This document shows, piece after piece, positions 7,454-40,919 of a stretch of 64,000 nt of DNA. A model generated the notes under the pieces. That model made no database searches. It was not told where the DNA came from and saw nothing but the letters and a program-made list of their open reading frames with translations. Location of the stretch: positions 2,571,501-2,635,500 of the forward strand of contig JARUPZ010000006.1 in assembly GCA_031213475.1 (NCBI GenBank), read 5' to 3'. Position numbers and translations under genes: made by a program. The first letter of the stretch is position 1. Each line of letters begins with the position of its first letter. This DNA comes from Nereocystis luetkeana (lineage: Eukaryota; Sar; Phaeophyceae; Laminariales; Laminariaceae).

Positions 7454-7736
7454 TAATAATCAAAGTTACGCCGCACATCCAACCTCGCTCGCTCGCCGGC
7501 CCGCCCACCAGAAGCACGAGAAACCGATATTGATCTGCCTTTCCAACTGGCACTACGCTCTCGCTCTCAAGAAAGTGAACCCTCTCAGGCTTCATCGTCC
7601 TCTACGCCAAGAACCTGCCTGTGTTGTCTTCGTCCACGTTCGAGCAAGAGGGGCCTGCTGTAAACACTTACTTTGCGGTGAGATTAAAATATCATCCAGT
7701 ATTTATTTACTGCTGTACGATATAAGTAGAATATAG

Positions 7737-7750
7737 ACCAGGTACCTGGT
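7737..7750. repeat. Palindrome ACCAGGTACCTGGT
   Basis: A perfect 14-bp palindrome followed by further GGTACC-type half sites. The same palindrome, or its 16-bp form TACCAGGTACCTGGTA, recurs at 36434-36449 and 50581-50596. Shorter forms are near 6744, 37600, 38030 and 60460. Role unknown. Confidence 0.7.
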
Positions 7751-7971
7751 ACCAGGTACCCGGTACCATGTACTCAGTTAATACCACTCCGTCTGGACAT
7801 GTAAGGACAGTTTCGACAGGCATATTTACACTCAACGTCCTTACAATAATAGCGCCGTGTTACGATTATCAGCGAGTGCCTCGAGCTCTCGAGCTGTAGG
7901 CGTAAAACACTTTCTTTACCTGAAGTAGTAGTATTCTTCTGAAGCCACGCGACCGACGATGTGCAGCAACG

Positions 7972-10900
7972 AGCGGAAACTGTCCTCGCGTGTGTGTCCG
8001 TGGTGTGTCGCGTGGTTGTGTCATCTTCCTGAGTCTCGTGTTGCCTCTCGACTCCAGATTGTCGTTGCTTCCACAAATGCTTGATGTGAAGTGCTGTGCC
8101 GCTCTTATCGCGATGATTCTGTAGTTTCACTGATAAACACCCACAACAGCAGCACAGTACAGCAGTACCTCGCTTGCTCGGCCGCGCCGCCGATGAAGAT
8201 ATTGCCAGGCACCAGACAGATCGGATCACCGTACAGTCCATCCATGTCGGTTTCAAGTATCTGCATCATCTGTGTCATCTGTACCATCTAGACAGGTTTC
8301 CACGGGGCTCATCTACAGCCTAAAACATATGTTTACACGTCGCAGTAGTGACCTTCAGGGTGTACTCTAAACATTGATATTGAATAGTCAGGTTATCATG
8401 CGTGCGGGCCCGGCTTTGTAAGCATATCGTACAGTAGCAGTACGCTGATCTGGTACGATCTGTGTGATGGATACATGTTTCCACGTGATGATGTGCGAGA
8501 CATACCCAGTATCTGCGGAATACATGCCATCGGAATACATGTCATACGTCCCAACGAAGTGATTTGTTTTATCTAATGGTCGATGAGAAAATGAGCGGGA
8601 TAATAAAAATCGATTCGGCACGTTTTGCGAGTAGCTTAGTGTCCTTCCTTGCAACTTTCATACACCCGTCCGCGAGACCGCCTAGTACAGAAGTTTTTCG
8701 CTGTATCCCCACTCCCCACATCCCGATATTTTGCAGATATATATGCCAGAGCAGATATGTTCATGAGCTGTAAGGCCAACCCAATGTTGCCGGGTTCACC
8801 GTAGGGCGGTATGATTCAAATGTATGTACAAGTATTACTAAAGTAGCTACCTGGTAGTAGTTCCTCGGTTGGATCTTTGCTATACCTTACAGTCCTTATT
8901 GTTCTGTCAACATATACCCAGCGCAATATTTTATTATGTCAGCGATGTGAAAGTAATGTGCTGTAGATGATACACCCCATTTAGTAGATCGTGATCTGGC
9001 CTGCATGTATGCGTAGTTTGATTTTCTCTCTTCTTTCAAACATTATTGGAAGAGGAGCGCCTGGAAAGGAGCATTATGAGGATGCGACGTGTTATCTTCT
9101 CGGCGGCTACCGGTGTTCTTCTCTTCGGTGTGGGGCCTACCACATCGACTCCTGCCGCTTCGTGGGAAAAAGCAAACCACACGTGAGTAAGCTGCCCGAG
9201 TTCGTCAATTTCACGTTTCTTTGAAAAACGAAAGACTTGTTCAAGTGTGCACGTAGTACCTGGGATGACAAACACTGTGAATCGTTTGGCATGTTGTGCA
9301 CTGACTAAGTCTGTAACAATGCCAATAGCTGATAACGTGCTAGAAACGTAGATTCCATACATTGGACACATAGCCGATCCCCACCTTGTGATCTACTGTA
9401 TAGGTCTTTAGAGGGGGGTAAATGCCTGATCTCTACGCACTGTATGACCTTCCGTATTGGTGGGTGGGAGCCGCACAGTCTACAGGATCTAGGCGTCTTT
9501 TCCCTGGGCTGGATATATACTAAAATATCAAGATCTCACACAACATGACATAATGTCAGGTGACGATTAATTAGTGTTAACAAATGGTCTGCAGTAGTAA
9601 AGCACATTGTGACCAATCCGGCGCAAGTAAACCCAATGTAACAATATCGTCAGGCGGCATCACCCCGTTATCGTCACTCTGCTACCGTCACCACCACCCA
9701 GCCACCGTTACCATCGTTATGTCACCGTGACCCAGTCAACATCACTCCGCTACATTCCCTTCATCATTGTCACCAGTTCGGCACCACGTAACCCTGTTGC
9801 CGCCATGCTGTCACGGCATCAGCGTCATCGTGCCGCACAGTATCGATTGACCGTAGCGAACCACGGAACGGAACTAACTGGCCGAATCTGGATCCGAGTC
9901 CAAACCAGTAGCTCTGTGTTTTCACGAAAGATACGCCCCGCCTGAACCACCTTGCGCAGCCATTAACGACGAAATGCTAACTCTCGCACGGATGATACTG
10001 ACAGGCTTGAAAATCATGACATCGAGGAATAGGCTTCGCCCTTTATCTACTGTAGTTCTTGCAATATCGGCATGCCTGGTCTAAAGGAGGACTGGGGTTT
10101 CGCACTGTCCCTGCAGTACTCTGGCCCCGATCATTCCACACGCTGCCGAAATGTGCAGCTTAGAACTCGCTACTGTGCAGCGGTAATACCCACGCGGATA
10201 GATCAGACTGCCCCTTCTTGATCAACAGTATATATCTTTCGAGGAAGACAGCTCCCTGCTCTATGCCATCATTGCACGATATAGCGCGCGAGCACCGGGG
10301 TATGTCTGCACAAGCTGGCGCCTACACACGGGAGGAGTCGTACGGTCTGCACGATCTAGACTTTGATTGGGAGAGGGGGGGGGGGTGTACGATTAAGATC
10401 AACATCCCGCACACCATTTGGCCAATTTGAGAGCCCTACGATACAACCCTCACGTACATGTTTGTCAAGGCGACAGGCGTGTGATACCACTCCTGCGTAC
10501 ATACCGGTACCTGCCTGGCGGTTTGGTCTAATACGACAGCATCTGGACATTAAGTTGTGCATGGGTAATCTGCTGCAGACACATCGGAAGTAGATATCCG
10601 CTTTACGGACTCTTTCTATTGTACTAACCTGCTTGTCCATGATAGCACTCACGACGCGTTGAAACCAGCCCAAGAGCTTGTATCACACGCACAGCTCAAC
10701 CATGGTCCTTACACCACACCTTGATGCATCGCAAGGTAGCACGAGCACGCGCTCGTTTAACATTACATGACGTCGGGAGGGAAATGCTCCAATATCTGGT
10801 AGAACTGCAGCCAGCCGCGTATCGTTCTACGCCGCATCCAGACCGTGGATTAAACTGTGGACCCGAGAGTTTTCTTCTAATGTTACGAGTGCGCATGAGT

Positions 10901-12784
10901 TGATGGGAAGTATATTGTGCATTGTGCAGGCACGAGATGGACATTCATAACGTTTACAGTTCTGGTTTTGTTTTAGCTGGCTTAGTTTGCCCTGTGACAA
11001 TAGAAATCCCACTGTGCTGCTACACAGCATACCACTGTAGTAGTCGCTACTGGTGAAGAGCCTAAATTCGTTGGATGGACACGACAACGTCCCGCAGAAC
11101 CTGCTGGGTTTCTACGGTTGTGTATCGTCTATCCTACTATCAATACCTGACTCACACGCCTTCTGCTTTGTGGAGGCTGTGCGAACAACATGCACATTCC
11201 ATTTGTCCATCATCGTACACTTTCTGACGACTTGGCACATGTATCGGCACTGGCCTTTTGAAGACCCCCTGCAAGCACCTCCTGACACGCGTATTGTGGA
11301 TTGTATATGATATCGTTTGTCCGAGTCGAGGGAGAGACAGACACTTCTCGCCACGAACAGATGCATGGATAGCAGCCTCCTGCGAGTTCTTCTCAGTATC
11401 CCACCGCCATTTGTTTCCCTGGCTCTCTTTCTCCCTGTTCCCAAGGTTCCTAACTAACAGCACCAACCGTAGAGGTGTCTCTGCAAGGTATGCTGTTGTT
11501 CCATTCCACTCCCCCAGATCGTAATGTCCAACTGCAAAAAAACGGAACCATGGAGCATACGTAACCCCGGCTATCTGGAAGTGTTCCCCCTCAAACGAAA
11601 AGAGGGTAGAAGGGATGGAAAGGAATTCGCGCTCACAAACGTCGATTGGTTGAGTAACCCTTGGTAGGGCTGATCTCGAATGCTGTGTATCCATGCGTAC
11701 GGTGATGAACGATGAACACGATGACACTAACAAATCTGGGACGATGCGCCCTTTCATGTACACGCCCCCCAATACATCCCGCCAGTCACTACACTATCAG
11801 TCGCCGCGCTTGTCACTAACCAATCTCGCTCGTCGTCCATTGCACACCTCGTTGTTACGTCAAACGTTCTTCGTCATGCATATCTTCGCCGTTCTTCATC
11901 TGAATCCTTGACAAGAATGCCCAGGCAAAGAGGGTTTATGGCAGGAACACAAACGAAATTTTCGCCTCAGTCGACAACACGTGGGCAAGAACAACTCCGA
12001 CCCTGTCTTCTACTACTACTTTTTCCGAGTATCACCAATTCGTGCTTGTCGGCATTCAAGGAGGGACCGCCAATGATCACGGGAAACGTCAGCGATGCAC
12101 CGACCTGAAACACGTCTGGAACCTACCGCTCATACAGGTCAAGATATCAACTAACGCCGCCATGTAATTCTAAAGATATAGTATAGGTGTCGAAAGGAAC
12201 TCGCTCAGAAATATGTTTGAAACTGTCGTCAGAATGTGTGCGTTGGTGGAAGGTTCCACGAAAGTGATCAGAATTTCATCGTAGAGTTCGGCGATCGTGC
12301 ATAATATTGAAAACCAAGTGAAAAACACCCTCAGTCAGCCAGCCTGCCAGAGACAAAGGAACCCCTGTGATTGCGGTCGGTCCCCTGCCGATCCAAAACT
12401 TGCATTCGCTGGAAATAATGTTTCGTCTTGGAAGTTGAGGATATCGCGTCGCTGTGGGTTCTGGTTGGCTGGAATCATTAAAAAAATAGTCGTATTGCAA
12501 TTGGAGAAACAGAGCGTGGTGGGGGATTTGACCTTGAACATCGTTAAAAACAAATAGATCGCTTGAGTTTTGCCCGTTGATCAGGGTTATTTCTGTTTCC
12601 TTGTGATAATGGTTTCCCGGGTGTGGATCGTATGAGATTCTTGAAGATGACCTGGTCATAATATTTGTGAATTTGGTTCGCCGATTGGCCCTGAGCGTTT
12701 TCATTTCTGTTTTCCTAACGTATCGCGTGGATTACAAATGATACTTTAGTGATATATTAGTCGGTTACTGACCTGTTCACGGCG
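7972..12784. other. Low-copy DNA without a supported gene
   Basis: Unique-looking sequence between direct repeat A and gene A+. It has poly-G/C runs (for example near 10374) and many short open frames. The longest is 206 codons on the minus strand at 11152-11772, a length expected by chance in a window this size. One exon-like block is listed separately at 8169-8287. Confidence 0.4.
8169..8287 (-). other. Possible first exon, unknown gene
   Basis: Reading from an ATG at 8287, about 39 codons give a protein-like segment ending ...GGAAEQA, followed by a GTACTG donor-like site at 8168. It lies just outside direct repeat A. There is no partner exon and no family match, so this is only a hint. 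Confidence 0.2.
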
Positions 12785-15700
12785 ATGCCGCCCCAGGTGT
12801 TACCGGGGTTCTCGCTCGACGTCGACGTCGAACAAGACCATAGCGAAAGAGGGCGGTGGACAAGATTTGCGTGGGAGCCACCTATACCACCGGACCAGTT
12901 CATGATACGATTCCTGAATGTACTCCTCTACGTGTTCTACATCATCCGCTCGAACCACTTTCATGCCTTCCTGTTCGGGAGGAGACATCGCCTCCGCCGC
13001 TACTACATCAACCCCAACAGCACGAGAGGTCGCCGTTATCGCAGGATTTCGCGGGCAAAGGCCGACATGTCCCGGAGTCTGCGCAGCTTCTGGGCGCAGG
13101 TTCAGGCTGTTCCATCGTCCCCTGCAGCGAAGAGAAAGGCGCTCAGGGCGACCGACAGACTCATTCCTGCGAGGTCTAGTCTACCGGCGGCTGCTCCTAC
13201 AGCCCGGCTACCCCTCGTGTCGCCACCTGTGCTGTCGACCCCGCTGGAGGTAGAGGGTCTGGCGGCTGCGTCGCCTTCCCTGAGCCTTGTTTGCCAGGTC
13301 GTTGCTACCGTCTCACCGTGGCCCCTTCACCACTCGACGACATCGCTATGGATGCCCGATGCGGCAGTGACTGGCTCACTGTGTGTCGACAAGACGTGGT
13401 TGAGTGTGCCGCCACAAACCGTCGCCGTGACAGAACTGTGCCAGTCCGGCCGTGTCGTGACTGCGGGTGGGTGGATTTGTGCCGTCCAGCCTGGCGTGGA
13501 CGGACTGTGGATTGTGGGAAGAGGAACCAATATTCACTCCCGACCTGGTTATATCAAGGTGAATCGACCCCCGTTTGATCCGCGTGGAAGCATGCATGTG
13601 TGCAAAGGGAACACCCAGCCGTCGCCACGGTCTCAGCGTGCGCGGTAACGCCCTCAAGCCACGAGAGGATGTCACCAGCGGCCCCCGGCAGTGTCCCTAC
13701 GGGCATAGTACGTGCATAGCCTGCTGCTGTAGGCATTGGTGAAACGGAAAATGACTACGCCAAACGATATCAACGTCGCGAAATATAATTCTCGGGCTGT
13801 CACGATGTGTGTGTCGAGCGAATATACTGTCCTAACTCCCGAAACATTTACAACTAGTGTTCCTGAGGTGCTGCACTGCCCTTCAACGACGAATGTGTAT
13901 CATACAGTGCAATCGACTGAGGTTGGTGAATAGCAGATGATCATACCGGCGGCCGAGTCGATCAGCGTCATGTATACTCCAACAAACACCCTGTAGCACC
14001 CCACGCACACCCCGTCCCGGCTCCACTTTCTTATCGGTTAGTGAGAGCCACTCCGGCGATGCTAACCTTCCTTTGGCGATGATGGGCTTGCATATATCGA
14101 TGTGTATGTTATGAAAACCGGAGCCCATCCGCTCTGGCACCAACGCTTGAACGTATTGGTCAATTGCTCGCTCCCTCCTCCAAGTGACCCCTCGCCTGTT
14201 CGACGACGATGCCGTGCACCAGGAATCCGACGCTATGCTCACGGACTCACTGAATGCCCGGGATTCGCCGGGATTGGCACAATGCCTCACAGTGATGGAC
14301 TGGACCCAGTCGGGTGGCATCTCGCGAAAGGATAGCTACTCGAGTGACGCCGTTCGAGCTTATATGGCTTGTCCGCTATTTGTCTCTTGCATGAAACGAG
14401 TGGATGCAATGTGCAGTATGGTGCCGACCGTCGCGCTAAACCCCGACAGCGGCTGTCAGGTACGTCGGCTTGTGTTCGACTCACGCGATATGTGGACACA
14501 TATACGATAGGGGTTCTGCTTGCGAGTAACTTTATTGGTTAAGCCCGCTATCATGCAACGTGTGTTGTCCCTCTGCCACTCGCGGGAATAGGCTATGGCA
14601 TCAGTGTCTTGAGCACGTTGATTGTGTTATCATCGTGGTAGTGCAGAACTGACTGCAGTGATCCCGATGATGCGACCACATGGCTATATCTTCTGTATCA
14701 CTTACCCTCGAAAAAAAGTATTCATGGTGCCGGCCTCGGTACATTAACCGTGCCAGCACATGAAACATTACAAGTTGCAGGCTGCCGCACTTCCCGCCAC
14801 GAATATCGAACGACCATCGTTTGTGTTTGTGTACGCAACAATAGTCCGTCGGTTTGGCAAACACAAGGAAATCTTACTTGAATCATTCAAATCTTGGATC
14901 AGTTCCATGTTACTTGCATGATATCCCTGACAACATGTTATACCGCGCGTCGATGTCGTTGGAGCGATTCCATTGGGGTTGGCAATGCGTAGTAGCGTGG
15001 GAAACTTAAACAGATAACGCAGAGCGACTGCCGTTACTCGCCTCCCGCAATTTCAGAATGATAAAAGAAGTGTATTTGACGTGACTCTTGACCAATTACG
15101 CGAGGAGTTTCCTCCCTGTGATGTGTACCGGGCCGGCGGCCTTCCCAACCTTCCATCGGTCTTTGATTGTTGCTCTGCGACCTTTGTCGATCGTCAAGAT
15201 GCATGCGCACGACAACCACCGACTCACGAATACGCACACATTGTTTATGGCTTTTTTACTGGTTGACGCCCACGCTTCGATGAGTACCGTCGAACGGTCC
15301 TCCTTGTCCCAACGCAATATGATCTTGTCTTCTTGTGCGTTGGGCGTTTCGACCGTACCGTCCGACCCCTGGCGTATACGTATGTAGGGTGTGTGCATTC
15401 AGCAGCAGGTGATGATTTACACCGCCGACGGGATCACGACTTGCTTTGATCAGGTCGGCGGGCACGCGTCCATCTTTTGTGGCGGCCTCGTCATCGGCCA
15501 CCAGGCTTCGGCATCTTCGCTGGCATGGCCGGTTGTCCCGTCAGTTTTCCTGCGTACATCGAATCCCGCAATTGAAGAATGGGGGCTAGTCACTCAGTTT
15601 GAAAACGTCGTGGGGCCATGCCCCCCTGCGCGTGTGGCGCGAACGCTGCACGGAGGGCCCGAAGTTGTGGTGATTTCAGCACTGGATGCCTCGGCTTGGT

Positions 15701-16625
15701 CGTCCCAAGCACAAACCTTCACCCTGTTGGACGAGACCCAGTCCGACAGCAGGACCCTGGCCAGAGATGGATGGAAGGGCGCCATACAAACGGGGTTTAG
15801 TAGATGGTCTGCCGCCTGTCCCATGGAGCTGGTAGACTTGCGGTGGAGTATGGCGAAGTCCGTCACACCACGTCGTTCGTGCAATGGCAATGACCAGGTA
15901 GGTCAGCCGTTTTTAGTAGTGCGATGAATTGTGTATCGGCACGGCTGACTTGTACATTTGTAATCGCCGTCATCACGCTCAGCCGATGTCGACAAAACCA
16001 ATATTAGCAGGCAGCGAAACTCTTGGTGCAGAGCGTGTGCGAGGGCTGAACTGACAAACTTCCTCCCATCGCTGCAGCCCCGAATCACCTACAGATAGCT
16101 ACGTTTCCACGTCATGTTGAGCGTTGTTCTGCAGTGGCTCACCTCTTCAGTACAATAGGTCGACCCCCTGGACGACCGGTTGTACGTGAAACCCCAAGAG
16201 CATGCCTTGTTGTTTTTCGATTACCCAACGACCATCTTATATACCTGCACGATATATACGCGTGTAAGGCCATCACCCCACACTTGCACCGAAGGATTGT
16301 ACAGTACGTTCATATCCTGCACTCGACGGATTTGTCTTACTGCAGAATACTACAGTACTTATCTTCCCAACGGCGCTAGACCTCTGTGTTATGTTTTACT
16401 GGCTATCGTCAATGCCGCACGACTGCTTCAATAACGTTCATGCAGGGCGCACGGAATCAGGCAAGCCAGAATACGCAGGGGGGGGGCGCTGCTACGTCCG
16501 AGGAGCGCGATCGGCACCAATCAATGTCACTGGCCTACTTCATGGAGACCTACCCCGTTGTGGTTTCCGTGCTCGCTTTGTTGCTTTATGTCTCTGCGGT
16601 TCGGTTGCAGGGCCTATTTATTTAA
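12785..16625 (+). CDS. Gene A+: spliced gene of unknown function, paralogue of the gene at 22101-27150
   Basis: Proposed exons are 12785-13466, 14185-14459, 15454-15897 and 16446-16625 (about 526 aa). The start MPPQV matches MSPQV of the inverted paralogue. Shared N-terminal features are a WTRF motif (about residue 25), a hydrophobic stretch and a long Arg-rich block (about 66-93), possibly a nuclear-localisation or nucleic-acid-binding region. Exon 2 begins by completing a Val codon to give V-TPRLF, which lines up with VPPRLW of the paralogue; both then run 39 residues to a shared VMD. It ends at a GTACGT donor. Exon 3 ends at GTAGGT in phase 0. It corresponds to three paralogue exons read without introns; both share an LxDET segment. 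The last exon carries RH-x2-M-x-L-x2-F-x3-Y, also shared, then a hydrophobic tail (possible membrane segment) and TAA. No family is recognised. The exon 1 donor (GTGGGT) is the least certain junction; a frameshift near the 3' end is possible. Confidence 0.65.
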
Positions 16626-16901
16626 TCGTTGACCAACATGTGCGCGTCAAGGCTGTTGTTCATGTAGGGGTTGCATAGCGTGTACGATGCTGTAGCTTCT
16701 TTACGGCATCAACAGATCGGGGTTAGTGATGATCCTTGTAGTCTGCAGGACCGATCGTGTTTGCAGACGAGCTGCCCACCACACCACACCACACAACACC
16801 TTGGGTTATATTCTTACTACCAGTGGTACGGGATACCACAAGGGCTCTGGAGGGCGACGTTGATCCTACTGTAGGCAATCCATACGTAGAGCGCTGTTCA
16901 G

Positions 16902-17578
16902 CATCATAACGTACACTTCTCATTTCCATTAACACCGGTGGCGCATACGGTTGATATAACGGACGCGTCAGACGTGAAGGCTGGCCATAGATACTGCCAA
17001 GTGCATCTTGGACAGAGTGAGCGCTGGAAGCTGGCTAGCCATGTGTAAGAACCAAGAGATAGGGACAGGGGGGTACCCTCAAGATTTGGATGGATTTCCC
17101 CTCGTTTCGCGAAGGGCGTTAGTCCCTCAAGCGACAAGTGTAAGACATTGTGGATGCTACAACTATAGGTCGGTTCAAGTAGAACATCATTGAATGCCGA
17201 CTGGCGGAGAAACATACGTGTCATATTATTGTTAAATACATTGCCTCTCGGGGGTGTTTAACCGTGGGTGCTACTACCATCAGGTGACGGGCTTCACTAG
17301 TTGCAATATTACATTGTTACATCGCCGTTCGCGGTGCTCGTGTGACTCTGCAGGGAAATATCCCCTGCAGGATAGGTCTACCACATACGGGCGACACCCG
17401 CACTGCTTGCCTACAGTACAGTACAGTAGATATATCAGGTGTCTCCGAAGTTTCACAAGGCAGAGCCTACACCATCGTCGAACGTAGCCGCGAAAACCTA
17501 CGTCGCCACAATCAGTACATTGCCATTGGACGCTGCGCTACCCCGCATCAAGTACTGCTTCGAGATACTCTACTGTAA
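16902..17578 (+). other. Exon-like blocks on the plus arm (B+)
   Basis: Block 16902-17044 follows a TTCAG acceptor and ends at a strong GTAAGA donor. It encodes a protein-like stretch ending HLGQSERWKLASH. Block 17371-17578 follows CTGCAG, keeps the phase, and runs 69 codons to TAA. The first block resembles a minus-arm block at 18302-18148 that contains HLAPCTERFPLSSN. These may be 3' exons of gene A+ or a separate small gene. Phases at the donors differ between the two arms, so the gene model is tentative and the function unknown. Confidence 0.35.
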
Positions 17579-17673
17579 GACTGAAGAGTAGGCTCGTATA
17601 GCGGGTTCGGGCTACACTCTTGTCGGGAGGAAACTATCGCGGCTCACGCACATCTTGGTACAAGATGCCTACA

Positions 17674-20600
17674 CTATGCATGTTGGAGCTCCGACCACCA
17701 GGTTGTTTGGTAGGCACACTCTCCTGGTGCAAAGTCGCACCAATTGAACTTGGGCATGTACCGTGGACACTCCTGTAGTACTCGACCGTATCGATAGTTA
17801 CTACAAATAACAGTATCCCCTCCTGAAACGAAGCCTGAGCTTTCCAGAGATACGAAAACAACGGCGGCGGTTGAGCTGGAGATTGTGTGGAATACACCTC
17901 TTTCTGAAACCGAAAGGTTAGTCGAGGCGACAATGCCGGTTTATTACTAGACTGCCGCGGGAAGGTAAAACTGCCTTGAGGGATCGCGTCGAATGGAGAC
18001 CGGCCTTAAGGATTGATTCAATCTGGGGATGGGTTTCTACGCGAGTTGCATAGGGAACGGGGGGGGGGACGGCTACCATGGCCATGTATGAATGGTTGCG
18101 GGTCAAACACACCTCCCCTTTAGAGACGGTGTTGCAGCCCCGGACACCCCAGTTACTTGATAGAGGAAATCTTTCCGTGCAGGGAGCAAGGTGATCGGAG
18201 ACTCGTTCTGGATATTTGTTTCGGAGCTCCGGTTTGATGCGGAGGTTTGATACCAGATAGGCATTTTTCCTTACAGGGGAAGTCGAACGGGGTCTTTGAC
18301 GCCTGCGGGAAATATCCAACTCTAATCAACAGCATTTTGTCCCCACGCGTGTGGCTGCGGTTCTGACGGAGTAGGGAGTAGGGAGTAGGGATGAGTTTCC
18401 ATGTTTGCTGGCTGTTTAGGGTGGTGCACATCGTAGTCATGAACGTCTGCGATTTATCATGGGTTGGGGTCGGGAACGTTCGCTTAAACCGTGCGGTTTT
18501 GCATTCCTACGTGCCTTCATCTAGACTTGGTGCGTGTATGCTATACAGTCCTGATGCGAATAATCGGGTGCTGTTTGTTTTATGGTGCTTGTGATCGTTA
18601 TTCCCGTTGTTCCTATACAGCGTGTCGGGGGTGTAGTTGTGCATGCTTCGCTAACATTTGCTTCGCTGTTATCGGAGCAGCCCGCCCAAGGAACGCCGCA
18701 ACTTCTATATCAACTTCGTGGCGACTTGATGCATTTGTTCGTTTAAATCGCGCTGGGAAAATGAAACGAAGACCGCCTGCGCACCTGTCAATTATATAAA
18801 CACAGTGGCCCCTTGATCGCGATTGACAACACTTACATGATCATGCCGAGGTATCGTAATTCCTGTAAGGTATCTTGATGTCTACAACAGTATCAGTAGT
18901 GTTACCATTTTGCTCGCGATTTTGACGATACATTCATGTGATGAGTGAAGCATTCGAGGCATGCCGTTGCTGCAAAGCGTGCGCAACCGTAGCGCTATGA
19001 TAAGTCTCCTGCCCCCCCTCGTGTTTTATTCTGGGATGAATATTGTGATATAAGCCCGGCGGTTCTGCTGGAGATGTTGAACGGCGTTTGCCTGTTCTCA
19101 TTCGGGTCTGGGATGCGCCTGCTTTCGCCAAACACGCCATATAGTCGGGAACTTTACGGTGGGTTCCGGTAGTCGAGACATGGATCGTTAACTTCGCAGC
19201 ACTAGTTTAAAGGTTTAAAGATTAGAGGGAGATACGTTCTTTAGCGCGATATGAGTAGAACGCATTGCTTTTAGGCTTGAATCGGGAACAACCTCTTCTG
19301 TGTTCATAAAAGTTGGCGTCGATTTCTCTGATCTTGTCCACGACTCAATGTCAGCACTCCTGTGTTACATTTTTGATTTAGCCTGAAATGGTGAACGATT
19401 TAGCATGAGATGCCGAACGAGGGAGAAAGTTACGTCGTAGGTGATGATGCACTGCTGTCTAATTTGTGTTATCGTGCCAATGGTATACTGGAGGAAACCA
19501 ATTAAATCCGTATTGCGAAACAAATTTCCCGCTGAAAGAAACAATCTCCGATCCGAGTCGTTTCTCGAAAAGCCACAAAATACACATCGTCCCACCTATA
19601 TAAAGCGGTTGTGAAGTGGCAATACAGAAAGCATTCCCTCTACTTCGCTGGTCGACGGCCACGACCAAACACGATCCATCCAAAGGACAAACCAAACATA
19701 GTGACTGAACAAGTTGGAGTGCAATAAGATTACAGCTATGTCCGTGGAAAAATACGACCCGTTCGATTATTCAAATTTAAGGCACATTCCTTGCTTTTTC
19801 GGACTGCAAGTGGCATACATTAATACTATAGAAACTAAGGCGAAACTACCTAAATTTGTTTTGTACCTGGGATATTCTCATGGTGAGCAATATATCCCAT
19901 TGACACTACCCCCACAATCCTCCAGCCGGGGCCAGGAGTACTACACACCATTATGACCGAAAATGTAATCCCCATTTAGGGATTGCTGTCCATCAACACC
20001 AGACGGGTACAATTTTCCCGGCCAAATTTATACGCGACTGCTGCATGCACGTATGCCATGAAGCTGGAAAACAGAAGTGGCCCAAACGTTTTTTTCGCCG
20101 TGTTGTTGCTGCTACTGTTGTTGTGGTGTACATGAAAAACAAAGCACCAGCCAACAGATGCGGAGAGATGACTGCACTGCATGGAACGAAATATTTGCGG
20201 GCTAGACACTGCATTTGCGGACATGATACATGTTGCATGAAGTACACCACCTACCATAGTACTGCAGGGTCCTTATTTATAGACCGGTTCTATGTTGTAA
20301 TACTGAAAACCAAAGCTATTCAATCGGTTTATGCGTCCCATCTTAGGTATATTTATGAATATGCTCATTAGTTAGTTGCTCCAGTGAATCGGATATATCA
20401 AAATATACGCCGGGTGCCAGGAAAGAGTTAATGGATTGCTGCGCGGAAGGCTCTTGCATTCGGAAGGCCACACTATTACGCCCAATCGATTTGTTTGCAC
20501 CCCTGTCAGATTGCTGGAACATGTGCGAGGTGATAATGCATAAATGTTTTGAAACGTCATTTGCATCCCCCCCCTCTGTAAAAACATTTCGCGTAGATCA

Positions 20601-21145
20601 GTCGGAAGGACCACACGATGCATCACGCTTCACGCTCGTCGGGGAAACTTTCTCAGAACGCTACGATTCAAGCACACGATACAAACGACTGGCAATCATA
20701 CGTCGCTGGGCATACCGCGCAGAACCCATCTCATAAAAAGACCACCGAAGATACGCCTAAGGCTCATTCCCCTCTCACGCGCCTACATACCATTTTCCTA
20801 TCACGAAGCAAAACCTATATTCCGAACGTACGTGTGTTACAGGATTGGCCGGCGCTATCCGATCCTCAGCATCCACCATCAAAACAATATCCACATATTT
20901 TTAGCACTTAGCAAACTCGAGCAGTCCCACTGACAGAAACGCTGTTGTCCTGCGGAAAAATGCTAGAGTAGAACTACATCTCTCTGGACCGACACGTAAG
21001 GATCGGAATGCATCAAAGTACAGAACGATCAGGTAATTTCCGTTCATAGGGTGGCATTCACTTCGGCACAAACCAAACGCTAATGTACAGTGCACCCCCC
21101 TTGACGTGGCGTACGATATTACTGTGTACCCCCCCCCCCCCCCGC
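17674..21145 (-). other. Exon-like blocks on the minus arm (B-)
   Basis: Four blocks join in consistent phase. They are 21145-20996 (acceptor ATTATAG, donor GTGTCG, starts with poly-Gly from a G run), 18752-18656 (acceptor TTTCCCAG), 18302-18148 (acceptor CCGCAG) and 17903-17674 (acceptor GGTTTCAG, ends TAG). The translations look like protein, for example NGNYLIVLYFDAF and HLAPCTERFPLSSN. The third block resembles the plus-arm block at 16902-17044. They could be downstream exons of gene A- (if the TGA at 22101 is not used) or a neighbouring gene. No family is recognised. Between the blocks (for example 18760-20990) I see no supported gene. Confidence 0.35.
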
Positions 21146-22100
21146 CTATAATAGAACGAAAGCACAGGTGAACGTACAAGTTCGAAACCATGTTGACGCA
21201 CCACTTATATATATATATATAACGCACATCGATCTTGTGAAGGAACCATGTTAAACTGAGGCATGGAGTATTCCACTACACCGGTGACCCAGTAGCGGGA
21301 TATACGTCATCATCGACCCGACCCCACTCGTGCCAACACCGATCGCTAGACTACACACGAGGCATCGGAGACCCTATGATTTGACCCTCGGTGGGGGGGG
21401 GAGAGCGGAGGGTGTGGATCCGGTCAAACCTTTGGTGAAGGGGTGTGTGGTTCACCTCTCAGGAGAAAAGGAGGGGAGGGGGGGGTCAAGGGAATCCGGG
21501 GAGTTTCAACACCCGTATAGGGCGGACACTTCTCTTCAACCATAACCTCTTTGCTACACTGTGAGTATGATCCTTACAGGACAGGGTCGTTCTCGAGGTA
21601 GGTGCCCTTGAACCCTCCAATGGATACAACTTCACGCTGAACTTCATGTCTAGAGTCGTGAATAAGAACACCTGTTACATATACCACATACCTCAGGACA
21701 CGAAAGGTAAAATGAAAATATGGGCCGACAATCCTGTGCACACGTTAACCGCAGAGAGCTCAACGCTACCTACGATCCACGACAGCGTATACAAGTTCTC
21801 AGGGCTACGTCGTGGAAAGGAATCGAACGACATGCGTTCTTACAGTACCCGTTAAGAAGCAGGAACATAGCCGCGAGGCATAGATACAAGCTACGCATGA
21901 GATGAAGAAACGCAACGAAATGAAATCCATGGTTTCATCAAAATCACACCACCCCAAGTATTACAATTGGTGGCACAACATAAACCAGCCAGTCTTCAGG
22001 TGTGCGATTGTACGTTTAGGGCGGAAACCCGAACACACACACTCAGATTGCATCGTTACTGCTACCGTTTACCGCCTGATCACAGGACTTTTAATGACGG

Positions 22101-25100
22101 TCAGAAGCACCGCACTGTGCCGAACACTGCAGCTGTGTAGCCAGTAACAAAGGAGCCCAGGTCCATGGGCGCGTGTCTCGCCAGGTCGTCGAAGCTCCTC
22201 GTCGTCTGGCCAGCGGAGAAAAGCCTTTCCCGTATGCAGATATCCTATAAATGCACCAGATATACGTCAAGTTGAGATTCCATGGAGAGAGGGCAGCAAG
22301 CGAGACATCGAGGAGAAGGCAGAGAGGCGTTGAAAGGGGGTATTTATGGCAACTGCACGTATTTTCGATTGGCGCATACAAACATTGTCCGATTGCAGAG
22401 ATAATGATATCGATACTACAGTCATCATATGTGTACGAATATACCAGGTGCAATATACAGACCAGACCCGAAACAGTGGAGGCACCTGCTTAAAATACCG
22501 ATACGTTCATCCACACTCATTCAAGCCCATAGTTAATTCATCTCACTTTTTCGAATGACTCAAGGAACAACCTGCAGCAATATCGAAGTAGTAGTGCCTC
22601 TATTCTAGGTAGTCTATTCCCTCAATTTCTTCTCTGCTGCACTAAAATTGACTTTGTTTTTAGCTTTAAGGTAAATAACAAAATCAACTGCAATAATAGT
22701 GATGACGTAGTTAGAGGCTTCGAGTGGAGGGACGTGCAGATAGATGATGGTGACCGCGACGTTTACTCGCGTTGCTATTTAAAATACGCCCCCGTGTCTC
22801 ACCGAGGTGGCGTCCATGTTTCTCTTGCATTCAGTTTCGGCGACGGCCAGCAAGCTGTGCATCACCCAGAGCGACACCGCGGGGCCGTTGTTGCCCGCCT
22901 CCAGCGTCTTCTCGATCAGGGAGTGCACCACCTCATTGGGCAGCCCCTGGCACGTGCAAAGACAGCCGACAGCGCTGGCAACAAACACGGCGGGAGCGCG
23001 ACACAGCACAGGAGGTTGGGTTGGTTCGTGAAGCGTCGTCTCGAGAGAATTCATTCGGAAGCCAGGGAGGGGACATGGAATTTGAATGTTTGTACTACGG
23101 AACATGACCCATACTATTACGTATTTAAACATGGTTGAAAAGCCCTAAACATTTCGGATGTTGTTTCAACCATTTTGCGGATGAGAACTAGTTAAACTCG
23201 AAACGTTGGTTTATCAATGGTAGGAGAAATGGCTGAATCACGACATTGGTTGACAGACCCCCTGTCTTACACGTGATGGAGTCAACACAATAGCGCGCTT
23301 GCGATACACGATGATGGTGAGTAACGGTTATCACTTTGCAAAACAAAACAGATGTAGGGTTTTGGAATATTCTGCTGTGCCTATTAAGCATGTTGATAGC
23401 GGACGAGCGTAGCCCATCAAGGAGGTCGAGCATATCTAGTTGTTTTAACACGTTCACAGAAAACGTCTTCTCTGACAGGCAAACTGAAACATAACTCGAA
23501 GGTATTGAATGTTATCGACAAAACAATCCATCCTGGTAAACCCCTTCGTTGACATGACACCTAAATAAGAACCGAAATCGGAATATACAATCGGAATGCA
23601 ATGCGACCACTCCGCTCACCTCACGAATATCTCAGCATATAGAGCGTCCATGGTTTCATCTTCTAACCAGATGTGCGCTGTCGGAGACTGCCTTCGCAAC
23701 ACCTCCCATGAGTGCCTCATACCCTGGGAAATTCAACGACAAAAGAAATGTGCGTATTGCGTCGATCAAGAGCTGTGAGCTGTACGCTACTCTTTGCGGG
23801 CCAGAAGAGAGGTTGCTTCACTACAAGCTGATAATGACATGTTACCGCCTACGTAGTTTGAAACACGTGGGGCTACATCGCACCCCAATCGATGCAGGTC
23901 CGCACGAGAAACACAGATGGGTACTAAGGGAAAGGTACATCGCCAAGTATCGCAGCGAGGCGGGTTTGGGACCATACCATCACCAGAGCCTTCCGTTTTA
24001 TCAATAATGTCTTGCCGTGTATTTGTGGATACAGGCCAGGTATGGTGAGGGGACCCGTGTGCAAGCTAATAACACAGCAACAGGAAAGGTGGGGACACCA
24101 TGAACGCGCTACAGTACCGAGAAAATTCACAAGGGATGAGGGGGGGGGGGGGGGGGCATGCTCTAGTGCTTGTTTGATTTTTCTTACCTTCTCGAGCAGA
24201 ACTGGCTGTCCGTCGATCGTAGATCTCTGAAACCAGGCTGCGGGAGACGCCCACTGCACGAACACTTTTAGCGCTGCTTTCTTGTCTCCTCGTACTCCAC
24301 GGTAGATTGCCCGTGCGGCGTGGTAAAAGCCCTGGAAATGCGTGACGAGAGGAGGTGAAGTCATTGGTTTGTACGTACCCTGATTTGCGGTTTACGGCGA
24401 AATATAGGGTGTGTGCTTTGTGCCTCGTTTCTGCTTCAGTGCATTACGCATAAGTGCACTGCAAACACAAACATTTGCTTTTTCACTGTACTTCAGCTGA
24501 AATAATACAAACGGTAAGAAAACCGCGCAAAGTATATGGGATATGAGACTATGTAATCAACGTAAGGACTGGTATCGGTGGCTTGGAAGCCAATCATCTA
24601 CCACGACGTATGCCCTCAGGAACCCAACGTCTCGCCAGACAATATGATTTAATTAAAAGAAGAGTGAGTGCGGCAACAATCTGATGAACAGTCGCTCCGG
24701 TGGAGCCTCGGTACAAAACGAAAAATACTGCGTAGGACAGATAACCAATTCAACCAAAACAATGGTTGTGCAGCCACCAAATGATAATCGAGTCAGCCAC
24801 AATTTCGTTATCGGAGGGAAAATGTCAAGCCCCCGATTTGCATACAGCACATGGCATAGATATGGAAGGGCCTCACCTGTGCATAGCCGGTACACGGGTA
24901 AAGCTCCACCGCCTCCGTTAATATCCACCGCAGAGCTGCCCGCTCTGAAGGACACGCCTCAACCGAAAATCGGTCCACGTCAGCCTTGATGACGTACCCC
25001 CACCCTCGCTTGGGCCTCGCCATGCTGTCGGACTCGTCCATGTCCATCACTGCGAACGTCTTCGCGACCCTCGCCCAATCAAGGTCATGCAACGTATCCA

Positions 25101-27150
25101 CTGCATCCGACGGAACAATAGCTCTCCCCTCCTCAGACTCCCAGAGACGCGGCGGCACCGCAAGCGCAGGGGGGAACCATGGTCCCGCCGGAAGTCTGCC
25201 CAAATGAATGCCGACACCGAGGGTAAATGCCTGAGGGAAGGTAACCAGGGAAGGCCACAGGGCCGATGAAGCTTGAAAAAGAACAGGCTCCATCGGCGAT
25301 CCAGGTTTCCAGCGAAACGGCGGAAATAAATGGGCAGGGATGATCACTGGTGCCGCGCGTATTCGGATCTGGAGAAACACGGGTCCGAGCGCAGCTGCAA
25401 GAGAAAATGCGCTTGTGACAGGCCACGAGCCCTCCGGGGCCTGGTATGGAACTACTTCCATGGCCGCTCCAGGCTCCCAGAGAAACGGCGCAGGGACGAT
25501 CACTGGTGCCGCAGGAGGATGCCCCAGCGGAACTACGACTCCGAGCCTAGCTGCCGGATGAAAGGAGTCCAGGGAGAGCCATGACGCGGTGGCGGTGGAT
25601 TGACCAGGAACTAGTTCCATCGCTTCGCCGTGTTCCCAGCGAACTGGCGCAACCTGAAGCGCAGGGGCGATCAACAGTGCAGCAGGAAGGTGCTCCAACG
25701 GCAGCACGGCTCCGAGCGCAGCTCCCATAGGAAAGAGGTTCGGGGCAGGCCACAGTGTCATCGAAGCTCTGTGAATAGCTAAATCCATGGTCAACCCAGG
25801 CTCCGAACGAAGTGGCGCAAGAGGAAGGGCAGGAGCGATCGATGGTTCCAGCGGGCGTTGTTCAAGCGGAATATCCGCTCCAAACGCAGCTCCTTGAGAT
25901 GAGGAGTCCAGAGTAGGCAACAGGGCCGCCGGTGTTTGGCAAACAATTATGCCCATCGTCGCCCCATTATCCCCGAGATGAGGCGCAAGCGCAAGTGCAG
26001 AGGCGACCAACGGTTCTGCAGGAAGGTTCCCCAGTGAAATGTCAAGTCCAAGAGCAGGCGCCGGAGATAAGCGGTCCCGGGTAGGCCACGGGGTCACCGG
26101 GATTTGGTAGCAAACTATTTCCATCACCGGGCCAGGCTCCCAGGTAACAGGCGCAACCGGACGCGCAGGGGTGATCAACGGTGCCACCTTAATTTGCTCC
26201 AGGGGACCCATGGCTCCGAGTGCAGCTGCAAGAGAAACGGAGTCCAGGGCAGGGCACGGGGCCGCCGGGGCTCGGTAGGGAACTAGTTCCATAGCCGCTC
26301 CAGGTTCCCAGCGAAGTGGCGCAGCCGGAAGAAGGAAAGGGTCGATGAACAGTGCCACAGAAACGTGCTCCAGCGGAATGGCAGCTCCGAGCACAGCCGC
26401 CGTAGGGAAGGAGTCGAGAGCAGGCCATGGGGTCGCCGGGGCGTGGTAAGGGACGATGTCCATCGCCGCTCCAGGTTCCCAGAGAAACGGCGCATCCGGG
26501 GGCGCAGAGGCCATCAACGGGGGCTGAGGAAGGTGCACCGGCGGAAGGGTGGCCGTGGGTGCTGCTGCCGGGGGCAAGTGTCCTAGAGTAGTCCATGGTT
26601 CCGGAGGCGTTTCCAAGGGTGTCAGGACGCTTACGGAGGCAGCAGGAGCCAAGTTGACACCTAAATTGGCCATCGGGGGCCAGCGCGCCACAGACACCGC
26701 AGGAGCAGCAATGATTGCGACCTCCGTCGGGTTCAGATTCAGTGGTGCTGTATCCCCAACTGCGCCCTTTTCCCGCTCATCTCCGCACAATGTCCAAGCA
26801 AAGCACATAACCTGTGTCCAGGCGTCCCACAACATCTGGTCAAGGTCGGCATTTACTCGCGAGATGCGGCGGAGACGGCGATTTCTCTTGCTGTTCAAGT
26901 TTATACGGCGGTAGCGGCGGCGGCGGCGGCGGTTTCCTCCTCGCTTCCTTCCGTAGAGCAAAGCGTGTATGTGGTCCGCGTTGATGACGTGGGCAGCGTA
27001 CAGGAGAGCGATGAAGAATCGGTCCACGAACTGCTCCAGGGGGGCGGGAGTCTTCCGGTCGAATCTCGTCCATCGAAACTCTTCGTCTTGATCGTCATCT
27101 GGAGTTTGTTGGAAATCGCCCGCAAGATATGTCGACACCTGGGGTGACAT
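22101..27150 (-). CDS. Gene A-: five-exon gene with a 56-residue repeat array, unknown function
   Basis: Exons on the minus strand are 27150-24877, 24331-24188, 23723-23625, 22946-22803 and 22244-22101 (about 934 aa). All junctions are phase 0 with GT...AG ends: donors GTGAGG, GTAAGA, GTGAGG and GTGAGA; acceptors TTTCCAG, TTTCCCAG, GTGCCAG and TTTATAG. The ATG at 27150 is the first after an in-frame TGA and matches the start of A+. Residues about 27-30 are WTRF. A hydrophobic stretch (RFFIALLYAAHVI) is followed by a dense Arg block (about 68-97). Residues about 222-668 are eight 56-aa units starting WEPGAAM-like, rich in Ala/Pro/Leu. The C-terminal exons include YAQ|GFYHAARAIYRG, LEDETMDALYAEIF and RHAPMDLGSF, matching A+. 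Exon sizes 144/99/144/144 are regular. No known domain is recognised; a structural or nucleic-acid-associated role would be a guess. It lies in inverted orientation to A+. Confidence 0.75.
25143..26487 (-). repeat. 168-bp tandem array inside gene A- exon 1
   Basis: Eight in-frame units of about 168 bp (56 codons), each beginning near WEPG and containing PxPLE- and PALPLAPLR-like segments. Units differ by many substitutions, but the frame has no stops, which implies selection for an open repeat. The paralogue A+ has at most one decayed unit (LWMPDAAV). Confidence 0.85.
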
Positions 27151-28099
27151 TAGCGGTAGTTGTCAATAGCCGGTGTTAACAGTAGTTCTATGTGTCTTAA
27201 AGTTAAGGCTGGGACCCTTGCGGTTTGTCTTACTTCGACAGTGTACGTCTTCCTATACTGGGGTGCTAACCTTCGGAGCCAGTGACAACGAACCAAGAAT
27301 ACGCCAGGAACGGGATTCGCGGGGTTCGCTTTCTTTCCCCCGCTCCAACATACCTTTCTCATTCTTCGTGAAATGATCTACTCTAACGCGATGATTGCAA
27401 CTTCGGCACACTATTTTCGTCGGTAGCTGTTAGCATTGTGACTTGCTCTGCAGAAGTTGTATGTCCTTCCTTTGTTGGTTGTTCGGACCTACCTGGTACA
27501 GTAGAACGGGACTAGCGATTTTCGCTTCATCTCTCACCGCGCCTACACGTTTTTGTCGCTCTTCGAACAACCATCAACTGAGAGGTGGTGTGTTCAACGT
27601 TGACGACCATACGGGATATAAATTGTAGCTATTTGACTGTGACTTGCTCTATTCTAGTTGTATATCGTTATTCATCTGCTTTCGTTTTGGTACGGGGCGC
27701 CCGGCGCTCCCAGAGTATGCTTCAGCGGCCTCAAATTAGGGCTGCCCATACCTCTCCAGCAGTTGTGACAGGAGTGGCAATGCCAGTGTAGGCACCGCTT
27801 GACGCTCTTCCTAGGCCGTTGCCGGCCATGAGTTGCGGCAGGACGGCGAATCTATCGTACATGCCCAGGGATGCCTCGATACTGTTTTCTTGAACGTCGG
27901 CGAGGACGGAGACAGCAGACACGCCTGCGGTCGGAATAGATCTGGTAGCAGCGGTCCAAAACCCAGTCCTCACGTTGCACGTCTTGGCGCCGCCGGCATC
28001 ATAAGGGTAGTTGACCTCGTTTTGCTCGTTTCGTTTGAATCTCCTTGTCAGCGATCGGCAAGCAACACGGTAGAAATAAGGTCTTATCGCCCAGACATT
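27151..28099. other. Short intergenic stretch before direct repeat B
   Basis: Contains one exon-like block on the minus strand (listed at 27752-27924). Otherwise I see no gene. The boundary with the direct repeat is at 28100, but it could lie further left if the repeat begins before the window. Confidence 0.4.
27752..27924 (-). other. Possible exon of an unknown minus-strand gene
   Basis: A GC-rich open segment of 57 codons between a CCGCAG acceptor and a GAG|GTATGG donor. It reads like ordinary protein (for example GMYDRFAVLPQLMAGNGLG). The frame stays open upstream into the direct repeat. It is upstream of gene A- in the same orientation but separated from it by stops, so it is not part of that reading frame. 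Function unknown. Confidence 0.35.
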
Positions 28100-28959
28100 C
28101 TGCGGTGGCGGACAGGCGATGTTTGTACGAGATGTTTCAAGCGTATTTCCCCAAACTGTGTCCGCCACGAATGTCCCAAGCAATAATAGCTACTCCAATG
28201 CCATAAAGTAGGCATCATGCTGATCCCCATGAACAGCAGAAGTGTTTGTGATACGCAGTCCCTTCGTTAAGGGCTAGCGGCGAAACTGTGTCCCGAGTAA
28301 CCGCAGACCACATGAAAGGACAAGCGCAGGCATGGATTTCCGTGATGAAAGGAAACCAGTTTTCTCTGTATTGTTCTGAACCAGCCGGCTCAACTGTATC
28401 TGCTCCATGTCATTTCCATAGTGCATTTCGCGACAAAAATGAAAAAAAGACTGGGTACGGTCAACCTCAAGTGTATTGCGACGCTAAGAATCGATCCTAC
28501 AACGAAGCTGAGACAGACGAAGGAGCCGGTTCTCCTGCAGATACTCCATGGCATATAGTCAGCACGTTTCGCATGAAAAATACGAAGATGGACTACAGTA
28601 CGTCAGGCCGACTGCACGTGGACTATCGCGATAACAAACGTTCCTAATCTGAAACTTAGATCATATACTAAGTATCGAATTACTAGTAAACGGCAATTAC
28701 GTACGCAAAACACGTTTCGGATATTGTTTTCCGCACTAAATACCAGCGCGATTCCAGTACAGTTTGTGCAATGCATCTATTACAGATCTATTGCTGCAGT
28801 ATGGAACTCGAATGTATGAAAAAAAACACACCTTGGACAACGTGACACTAAACGTTCTATGTTAATGTTACGCGCCAGCAAAAACAAACACGTAACATTT
28901 CGTTAATGCGTTAATTACTTTCTGCATTTTCTGACCACATAGGGTTAGTGCGTTGTGAT

Positions 28960-29550
28960 ATTTGCGGGCGATATCCTAGTGTTATGTTCGAGTGTTGCCT
29001 TGATCCCGTACTGGCCGCAGTGGGTGTTACGATGTTAGGGTAGGCATCACATAGCGAGTAACACGATGTTAGCGTGTTAGCGAATTTCCTTGTCGCTATC
29101 GTAACGCACGTTGAAGGGATAACGTAGACGGCCAATTAAACGTTAACATTATGCCATCGCGATAGCGATATCAGCCCGTAGCGAGTAACGTTATGTTAGT
29201 GTGTTAGCGGGATTGTTACTTGCTACCGTAATACCCTGTAGACGGATAACGTACACGGCCAAATAAACACGTACCCAACATCACCATGATAGGGTATTAG
29301 ATAGTGAAATACCTTGTGGCTATCGTAGCAAACGTTAGAGATATGATGTAGATGGTCAATACAACGTTAACATTGTGCTACCGTATCATTAGCAGGAGCG
29401 GTCCGTATCGAGCAACGTTATTTGAGGGTGTTAACGGAAGGCTTGCTCCCAATAACACACATCAAACGAATTACGTATACGAGGTATGATCAAATACACA
29501 TTAGCATCATATTAATGTTTAGGCCTTGTATGCAATGTATGTAGTGAGGG
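28960..29550 (+). repeat. Degenerate GTTAGCG-type satellite, longer copy
   Basis: Counterpart of the array at 860-1190, longer by about 265 bp (29287-29551). The extra block again contains the CAACGTTAACATT and GAGCAACGTTATT phrases, so it is additional repeat units rather than foreign DNA. Confidence 0.6.
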
Positions 29551-35500: not shown

Positions 35501-35768
35501 CAATACTCACGTGGGTTCGTCTATACAGCACGTGCTCGGAAACACGCTGCGAGACGGCACAACCGCGAACGAACAAGAACGAGCTAGAGGAGTGTACACA
35601 TCGCTCTTGGGACGGCGGGGCGTTTGGCGGGAAATCTCATTCCGTGTATTGCTGATGTTCTTACCTGTTCGAAGTCTGTCCGAAGTCGCAGCGTGTCGCC
35701 GAAGAAGATGGGGGGCGTAAAGCGCGGGCTGGTGCCGAGATCGTGAGGCCGGTCGCACAGTCAAAGGG

Positions 35769-40860: not shown

Positions 40861-40919
40861 GATGGGCGGAGGCGCCGGGGTTCCAGGCGGCGATGGGGTA
40901 GACGCGGCCGGATCAGGGG

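Follow-up and report, generated by a model that had tools for sequence, protein, structure and literature searches.

A+ and A- belong to a single brown-algal orphan family, each representing its own subfamily. Together they form a convergent pair, which is the repeat unit of a tandem array of which the window (the whole 64,000-nucleotide stretch of Nereocystis luetkeana DNA analysed here) is the right end. A+ extends from 9076 to 16625 on the plus strand in 6 exons and A- from 34596 to 22101 on the minus strand in 7 exons. The first-pass annotation had described an inverted pair; the converging orientation was confirmed, but the tandem array had been overlooked, and the pair is one unit of that array. 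The evidence presented below supports both A+ and A- as real multi-exon spliced genes.

Exon structure and relatives in Undaria

The exons of A+ in the window are as follows.

9076..9182, plus strand: exon 1, signal-peptide-like (MRMRRVIFSAATGVLLFGVGPTTSTPAASWEKANH); donor gtgagt, phase 2
11945..12137, plus strand: exon 2, the reading required in the window copy by frame logic across 20 copies
12797..13466, plus strand: exon 3, WTRF, hydrophobic and Arg-rich N-domain
14185..14459, plus strand: exon 4, C-module, weak copy
15409..15897, plus strand: exon 5, includes the clear C-module copy
16446..16625, plus strand: exon 6, hydrophobic C-terminus and stop

Those of A- were compared with P0001, one of the two Undaria pinnatifida proteins described below.

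34484..34596, minus strand: exon 1, signal-peptide-like (MRFMKAPKSSSASVLLFLLGTVLTTPTSGISGDQAND); donor gtgagt, phase 2
27752..28043, minus strand: exon 2, 5' limit uncertain with several in-phase acceptors; similar to Undaria (0/1000 shuffles)
24877..27138, minus strand: exon 3, N-domain, eight 56-aa repeats (25162-26499) and C-module; matches P0001
24188..24331, minus strand: exon 4, 62% identity over 55 aa with P0001
23620..23723, minus strand: exon 5, 59% identity over 37 aa with P0001
22803..22974, minus strand: exon 6, 79% identity over 57 aa with P0001
22101..22244, minus strand: exon 7, stop; 71% identity over 45 aa with P0001

A protein search with A- as query found two Undaria gene models (E=9e-138 and 5e-93), and the same two were recovered with a differently built query. 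These proteins, P0001 and P0002, are Undpi1 10004 and 10003 (HiC_scaffold_28 g12458 and g12457), and the consecutive gene numbers indicate that the two genes probably adjoin one another. The corresponding search with A+ gave no relative at E<=10, but P0001 and P0002 match A+ directly (E to 3e-23), which shows that true relatives can escape the word filter used. In the searches made, the family has been seen only in Nereocystis and Undaria, with the reservation that the filter could miss other algae.

The Undaria proteins share the N-domain, the C-domain and the extra N-terminus with the A genes, but differ in the middle, where they have a different sequence, again rich in Pro, Ala and Leu, that includes a single strongly hydrophobic stretch. 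A profile of the 56-aa repeat detected one weak stretch in each (score 9-10; best shuffle 4.8). The hydrophobic stretch of P0001 (residues 361-379) and the hydrophobic C-terminus of A+ are both absent from A-, and topology may therefore differ among family members.

Homology of A+ and A-

Sequence comparison of the long exons of A+ and A- gave E=2e-22, and that of the C-terminal module E=3e-9; the N-domain alignment scored 209, the best of 1000 shuffles reaching 57. Alignment and shuffle tests upheld the earlier observation that WTRF, a hydrophobic plus Arg-rich block and RHxxMxLxxFxxxY are common to both genes. The N-domain pattern WxRF..QF..LLY..HxxAxLxGR, together with an Arg-rich stretch, is present in A-, A+, P0001 and P0002, over which 33 columns are invariant, column 1 (M1) being an artefact of GTG read as Met. 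The net charge of the Arg-rich stretch is +16 in 40 residues in A- and +14 in Undaria.

The same annotation had placed the starts of both genes at M(P/S)PQV, a position that is ruled out. Both genes read ccccag followed by GTG, about 150 more Undaria residues precede this point and exons were found upstream, which identifies M(P/S)PQ as the tail of an intron. A+ exon 1 resembles both residues 1-37 of P0001 and A- exon 1 (0/1000 shuffles each). Exon 2 of A+ is weakly similar to Undaria (1/1000 shuffles) and at chance against A- exon 2 (950/1000). All 19 of the 19 other fetched copies have an extra base in the exon 2 stretch, and acceptor 11931 fits them; a start at 11945 in all copies is ruled out, since the frame of those 19 requires 11931.

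At the C-terminal end, A- matches the Undaria family through a domain spanning exons 3-7, and the matches of A+ are limited to the exon 5 module and the last exon, the latter giving 0/1000 shuffles against Undaria and 5/1000 against A-. Comparisons of the first part of A+ exon 5 with A- exon 4 (229/1000) and of the exon 5 module with A- exon 6 (440/1000) were at chance. LxDET, previously listed as shared, had to be abandoned as a common motif: in the alignment LLDET, from A+, falls opposite the A- sequence VMDMDES, which is not a true correspondence, and the A+ exon 5 module is at chance against A- exon 5 (813/1000 shuffles). The proposed succession of VxPRL(F/W) and VMD survived in part, as A+ exon 4 matches the A- module (0/1000 shuffles), but the match is weak, and against Undaria it falls to 94/1000. 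The stronger A+ partner of the A- C-module is exon 5 (score 103), not exon 4. Given this weak exon 4 match and the stronger exon 5 match, A+ may contain two copies of the C-module.

Searches for known families

Pfam at curated cut-offs, applied to the A+ pieces, the A- pieces and P0001, returned no family (best match E=5.3), and searches of NCBIfam, PHROGs and PDB sequences gave nothing credible, so that, as far as these libraries extend, the genes were rightly described as having no recognised family. Matches of the C-domain to dihydrofolate reductase (E 0.1 and worse) and a complex I subunit match within the Pro/Ala-rich part (E 0.0056) were judged to be due to chance. P0002 passes two pentapeptide-repeat families only in a GSVRF low-complexity run that is absent from P0001, and this membership was rejected as an artefact. 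Structure prediction, suggested earlier as a check, yielded poor models (mean pLDDT 39 and 58) and no usable fold. Rfam at gathering thresholds found nothing in the window, and a literature search found no title on these genes, which does not prove that none exists. The window contains, in its right part, a LINE and an LTR-element RNaseH piece; when the 18 other window ORFs were compared with Pfam, matches occurred only in these two.

The Arg-rich stretch and the hydrophobic N-termini could also be read as belonging to nucleic-acid-binding or plastid proteins, in which the Arg-rich stretch would act on nucleic acid and the N-terminus would be an organelle signal. A Trp after the cleavage site can act in heterokont plastid targeting, and the Undaria protein has a Trp after a possible SVA cleavage site. 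However, A- has no aromatic residue at the corresponding place, as judged by eye, and the Pfam searches detected no known RNA- or DNA-binding domain; we regard this explanation as rather improbable. Far less probable still is an origin of A+ and A- as genes of a transposon or integrated virus, despite the LINE and RNaseH piece nearby and the phaeovirus insertions that brown algae carry. The genes have multiple introns, a mobile-element or viral domain was not found, P0001 had no relative in the viral and prokaryote contigs scanned, the relatives found are Undaria gene models only, and all 22 A+ places lie on one contig.

The tandem array

Contig C6 carries A+ DNA at 22 places, with identities of 89-100%, in a 0.9-Mb interval (2.05-2.94 Mb). 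Eighteen of the 22 are arranged head to tail, 28-42 kb apart, and four lie beyond, in both orientations. A- was found at the expected place in 17/17 further units read for it. Main-array copies agree at 95-97% over 1 kb of A+ and at 94-97% over 8 kb. Within the window, the array is represented by a direct repeat and part of the next unit.

1..7967, plus strand: left copy of the direct repeat, pieces 89-98% identical to 28100-36654; one array period
28100..36654, plus strand: right copy of the same direct repeat; right end of the main array
5801..5913, minus strand: exon 1 of the next A- copy, signal-peptide-like; 3/113 bases differ from 34484-34596

The remaining exons of this next A- copy lie to the left of the window (the A- exons of that unit were read in L045).

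The repeat unit within A- exon 3 is 168 nt (56 aa) and in frame, and superunits of 1002 nt vary in number among copies. Exon 3 measured 2262 nt in four copies, 3267 in one and 4266 in one, with no stop in these six fully read copies; in two further, partly read copies it exceeds 2262 nt.

Coding integrity and constraint

The A+ copies read represent 20 of the 22 places (2859244 and 2897956 were left out); 10/20 are fully intact and 6/20 broken. In a frame test, A+ was open in 12/16 copies as compared with 1.9 expected without selection, a comparison that overstates independence because the copies share ancestry. The test omitted L019 and L020, in which the stretch read ends in or before exon 1. 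It also left out two copies that the model scores as broken: L013, whose exon 1 and splice sites are disrupted, and L028, which has diverged; with these two restored, the frame was open in 12/18. Indel patterns numbered 3 in 1928 bp of exons and 33 in 5622 bp of introns for A+, and 0 in 818 bp and 13 in 2212 bp, respectively, for A-. The Undaria protein, itself a gene prediction, aligns across all four A- joints from exon 3 to exon 7 with no gap. This continuity, the mostly open A+ frames and the rarity of exon indels argue that these are real spliced genes, and the earlier view of them as spliced, diverged paralogues is borne out.

Amino-acid constraint on A+ and A- is nonetheless weak. The crude N/S ratio was 0.72 for A+, 0.79 for A- and 0.94 between A+ copies L014 and L028, and divergence in exons was just slightly below that in introns. 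Of the A- copies, 14 were read to the end of exon 7; one of these carries a stop, and in four the last acceptor is shifted by one base. Together with the broken A+ copies, these features could mean that the genes are passengers in a segment of about 28 kb that was amplified selfishly or accidentally and is now decaying slowly. We consider this unlikely in view of the open frames, with the same reservation about shared ancestry, the fewer indels in exons and the superunit changes, which are in frame in the copies read.

The mild constraint would also suit variable recognition or defence proteins, the array being a generator of diversity toward gametes, epiphytes or parasites in which unequal exchange alters the repeat number and gene conversion reshuffles domains. 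The tandem arrangement, the variation in repeat number, the possible second C-module copy in A+ and the narrow range in the search made are consistent with such a role. However, the main-array copies are highly alike, nonsynonymous change shows no overall excess and a receptor or lectin domain of known type is absent, and we give this proposal a similarly low probability.

Discussion

The explanation that we favor, tentatively and at somewhat below even chances, is that the A+/A- family encodes a repeat protein that carries an Arg-rich domain and is secreted, probably to the matrix or the cell surface. The surest step would be a cleaved signal peptide that routes the products into the secretory pathway; exon 1 resembles a signal peptide in both genes and in the A- copy next to them, as judged by eye and by similarity to the Undaria N-terminus. 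Less certain is that the Arg-rich loop, which is flanked by two helices predicted with low confidence, would bind the anionic polysaccharides of the brown-algal wall (alginate, sulphated fucans), a guess from its charge. Third in certainty, the Pro/Ala/Leu-rich repeats might serve as an extendable spacer presenting the C-terminal domain outside the cell. Proteins of the cell surface or exterior often carry repeat blocks that vary strongly in length. The least certain step is that amplification of the array would raise dosage and that unequal exchange in the repeats would generate length variants; amplification for dosage or diversity is our best reading of the array.

Several known systems resemble parts of this secreted repeat-protein family. 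Yeast megasatellite cell-wall proteins carry large in-frame tandem repeats, variable in number, between N- and C-terminal domains. A- has the same layout behind a signal-peptide-like start, and its 168-nt units and 1002-nt superunits constitute a large in-frame intragenic repeat of variable number; however, no Pfam adhesin domain was found in the A genes, and the likeness drawn here is one of gene layout. Arabinogalactan proteins are recognised by a Pro+Ala+Ser+Thr content of at least half. Like these and other hydroxyproline-rich proteins, A- has an Ala/Pro-rich region behind a signal-peptide-like start, but at about 45% P+A+S+T, with 13% Leu, its repeat region falls below that level. The vHPO and mannuronan C5-epimerase clusters of Saccharina are described as recent tandem amplifications of kelp gene families (PMC4421812). 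The A array is likewise a recent tandem amplification in a kelp; unlike those clusters of known enzymes, it is built from convergent pairs of a family without a recognised domain.

A bolder and, in our judgment, improbable extension is that the array, which spans nearly a megabase, is a hypervariable secreted system. Gene conversion among its members, together with superunits added in frame, would supply an extracellular repertoire, outside every known family, for recognition of gametes or microbes or for adhesion.

A+ and A- represent an orphan brown-algal family that is coding, is shared with the kelp Undaria, has been amplified to at least 22 places and carries a length-variable repeat block. 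Little is known of the wall, surface or recognition proteins of this multicellular lineage, for which the family offers a concrete candidate that can be tested, and the long gene array is a natural system for the study of concerted evolution.

Gene models of A+ and A-

Every intron in the models of A+ and A-, the two convergent spliced paralogues, is GT-AG. The A+ model comprises six exons encoding 637 aa:

9076-9182, plus strand, exon 1, well supported
11945-12137, plus strand, exon 2, mainly frame logic across copies
12797-13466, plus strand, exon 3
14185-14459, plus strand, exon 4, putative weak second C-module (a module of the C-terminal part)
15409-15897, plus strand, exon 5, C-module matching A-
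16446-16625, plus strand, exon 6

The A- model comprises seven minus-strand exons encoding 1076 aa:

34596-34484, minus strand, exon 1, well supported
28043-27752, minus strand, exon 2, 0/1000 shuffles against Undaria, 5' limit uncertain
27138-24877, minus strand, exon 3, eight 56-aa units
24331-24188, minus strand, exon 4
23723-23620, minus strand, exon 5
22974-22803, minus strand, exon 6
22244-22101, minus strand, exon 7

Sequence comparison supports exon 1 of both genes well (0/1000 shuffles in each of three pairs among A+, A- and Undaria). Exon 2 of A+ is a weak call resting mainly on frame logic across copies; its match to Undaria is weak (1/1000 shuffles at or above) and that to A- exon 2 is at chance (950/1000). 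Joints 1 and 2 have phases 2 and 0 in A+ as in A-, but the exon 2 acceptors were picked to fit, so that independent evidence of phase is limited to the exon 1 donors. P0001, an Undaria pinnatifida protein that is itself a prediction, runs unbroken across A- exons 3 to 7, a stretch with four joints. The shared start proposed in the first-pass annotation proved to be the tail of intron 2 (ccccag followed by GTG in both genes), and exons resembling the Undaria N-terminus were found upstream of it in A+ and A-.

Paralogy and relatives

The proposed paralogy was borne out: the N-domain (WTRF, hydrophobic and Arg-rich block) scored 209 against 57 for the best shuffle, and the A+ exon 5 module scored 103 against A- (best shuffle 46). 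The last exons scored 32 between A+ and A- (5/1000 shuffles at or above) and 43 between A+ and Undaria (0/1000). LxDET, also put forward as a common motif, fails to pair (813/1000 shuffles). In A+ exon 4 the C-module seems to recur in weak form: that exon matches the A- C-module (0/1000) and A+ exon 5 (1/1000), but against Undaria the figure was 94/1000.

A word-filtered protein search returned two gene models labelled Undpi1 as relatives of A- and no others, a taxonomic range to be read with the fact that the same kind of search missed Undaria for A+ despite a direct Undaria-A+ match. Undpi1 is the code for Undaria pinnatifida, according to PMC11913701 and PMC11316218. A- and P0001 share 69% identity in the best stretch, which covers 27% of the query, a level that points to another brown alga, probably a kelp, as the source of the window. 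A second Undaria protein, P0002, has a low-complexity GSVRF run at residues 20-230, absent from P0001, that draws pentapeptide-repeat and Hailong HalA matches and was probably taken into the gene model as a stretch of simple repeat. The family was placed by none of the domain libraries (Pfam, NCBIfam, PHROGs), PDB sequences or viral and prokaryote contig scans, and within these searches the description "no recognised family" holds. Structure prediction, suggested as a check, was run and gave two models, both poor; their only features, of low confidence, are two helices flanking an Arg-rich loop and a largely helical C-terminus.

A tandem array on the contig

Positions 1-7967 repeat 28100-36654 in pieces 89-98% identical, and exon 1 of A- occurs a second time at 5801-5913, with differences at 3 of 113 bases, because the window belongs to a larger array on its contig, C6, of which it is positions 2571501-2635500. 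A single search of the 465-Mb assembly (1987 contigs) with 1 kb of A+ DNA found at least 22 A+ places, all on C6. Eighteen lie head to tail from 2,049,498 to 2,584,500 (the window copy), spaced 28.3-41.6 kb apart (median 31.1 kb), and A- was found downstream at the expected place in all 17 other units (L029-L045). Four further A+ places, two per orientation, occupy C6:2859244-2941952 (2.86-2.94 Mb). This group is rearranged, with two A+ places 7.6 kb apart, and includes L028, the most diverged A+ copy, which is broken. Positions 21871-24892 have a 90% copy at 2.85 Mb.

A variable repeat in A- exon 3

The repeat region of A- exon 3 is rich in Pro (17.6%), Ala (17.4%) and Leu (13.0%). The exon is 2262 nt in the window, L029, L032 and L033, 3267 nt in L030 and 4266 nt in L035 joined with L048, all without stops; in L031 the open stretch spans at least 1372 codons and in L034 at least 993, the N-domain not being reached in either, even with the L047 extension of L034. 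Tandem Repeats Finder detected a 1002-nt unit (93-98% matches) in L030, L031, L034 and L035, equal to 334 aa, the length of roughly six 56-aa repeats. A profile of the 56-aa repeat found nothing above shuffled controls in A+, and one weak stretch per Undaria protein (score 9-10 against 4.8 for the best control).

Intactness and constraint

Frames were checked in 20 fetched A+ copies, placing the acceptor of exon 2 at 11931 (11945 for the window copy). The window copy has one base fewer at 11931-11945 than the 19 other fetched copies; a different acceptor would preserve its reading frame. Ten of the 20 kept every splice site and an unbroken frame (L009, L010, L011, L014, L015, L018, L022, L024, L025, L026), two kept an open frame, with a donor altered (L012, L027), and six were broken under the model (L013, L016, L017, L021, L023, L028); L019 and L020 were not judged, the fetched stretch stopping in or before exon 1. 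A neutral simulation using the per-copy number of differences and the intron indel rate expected 1.9 open frames in 16, against 12 observed (12 of 18 with L013 and L028 put back), an excess that carries no formal probability since the copies share ancestry. Indel patterns numbered 3 in 1928 bp of exons and 33 in 5622 bp of introns across 16 A+ copies, and 0 in 818 bp and 13 in 2212 bp, respectively, across 18 A- copies. The 3' part of A- was open over the covered length in 17 of 18 copies, four of which end before exon 7; among the 14 read through exon 7, nine were intact there, one had a stop (L038) and four had the acceptor moved by one base.

The excess of open frames and the scarcity of exon indels speak against one main rival reading, that A+ and A- are decaying passenger genes; the broken copies speak for it. 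Crude N/S ratios were 0.72 for A+ and 0.79 for A- (0.94 for L014 versus L028), and exon divergence between copies was only slightly below intron divergence; both observations speak against strong constraint.

Other elements in the window

62424-62781, plus strand, ~340-bp element, copy 1, 92% identical to copy 2
63493-63147, minus strand, ~340-bp element, copy 2, 92% identical to copy 1
55440-59192, plus strand, LINE-type element, unbroken 1250-codon frame, endonuclease (PF03372) and reverse transcriptase (PF00078)
41855-42502, minus strand, RNase H-like domain from an LTR-type retroelement, GC-rich block at 40-50 kb
40895-41394, tandem repeat, 126 bp, 4 copies, GC-rich block at 40-50 kb
48077-49116, tandem repeat, about 158/313 bp, 6 and 2.4 copies, GC-rich block at 40-50 kb

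The ~340-bp element has a tRNA-Val-like head and an A-rich tail, with GGTTCGAGCCC in both copies, and ARAGORN called tRNA-Val in one of the two; it looks like a tRNA-derived SINE, not a tRNA gene.

Possible function

The signal-peptide-like first exon, the basic domain, the long length-variable repeat, the C-terminal domain and the tandem amplification seen here make up the anatomy of secreted or surface repeat proteins, and anionic polysaccharides are abundant in brown algal walls. By analogy, the A+ and A- products, with a signal-peptide-like first exon, might be secreted or surface repeat proteins whose basic domain could anchor in the wall, because such walls are rich in anionic polysaccharides. 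We hold this reading tentatively, at somewhat below even chances; recognition proteins are the other main rival. Among kelp genes, those for vHPO and C5-epimerase are likewise known to be tandemly amplified (PMC4421812).
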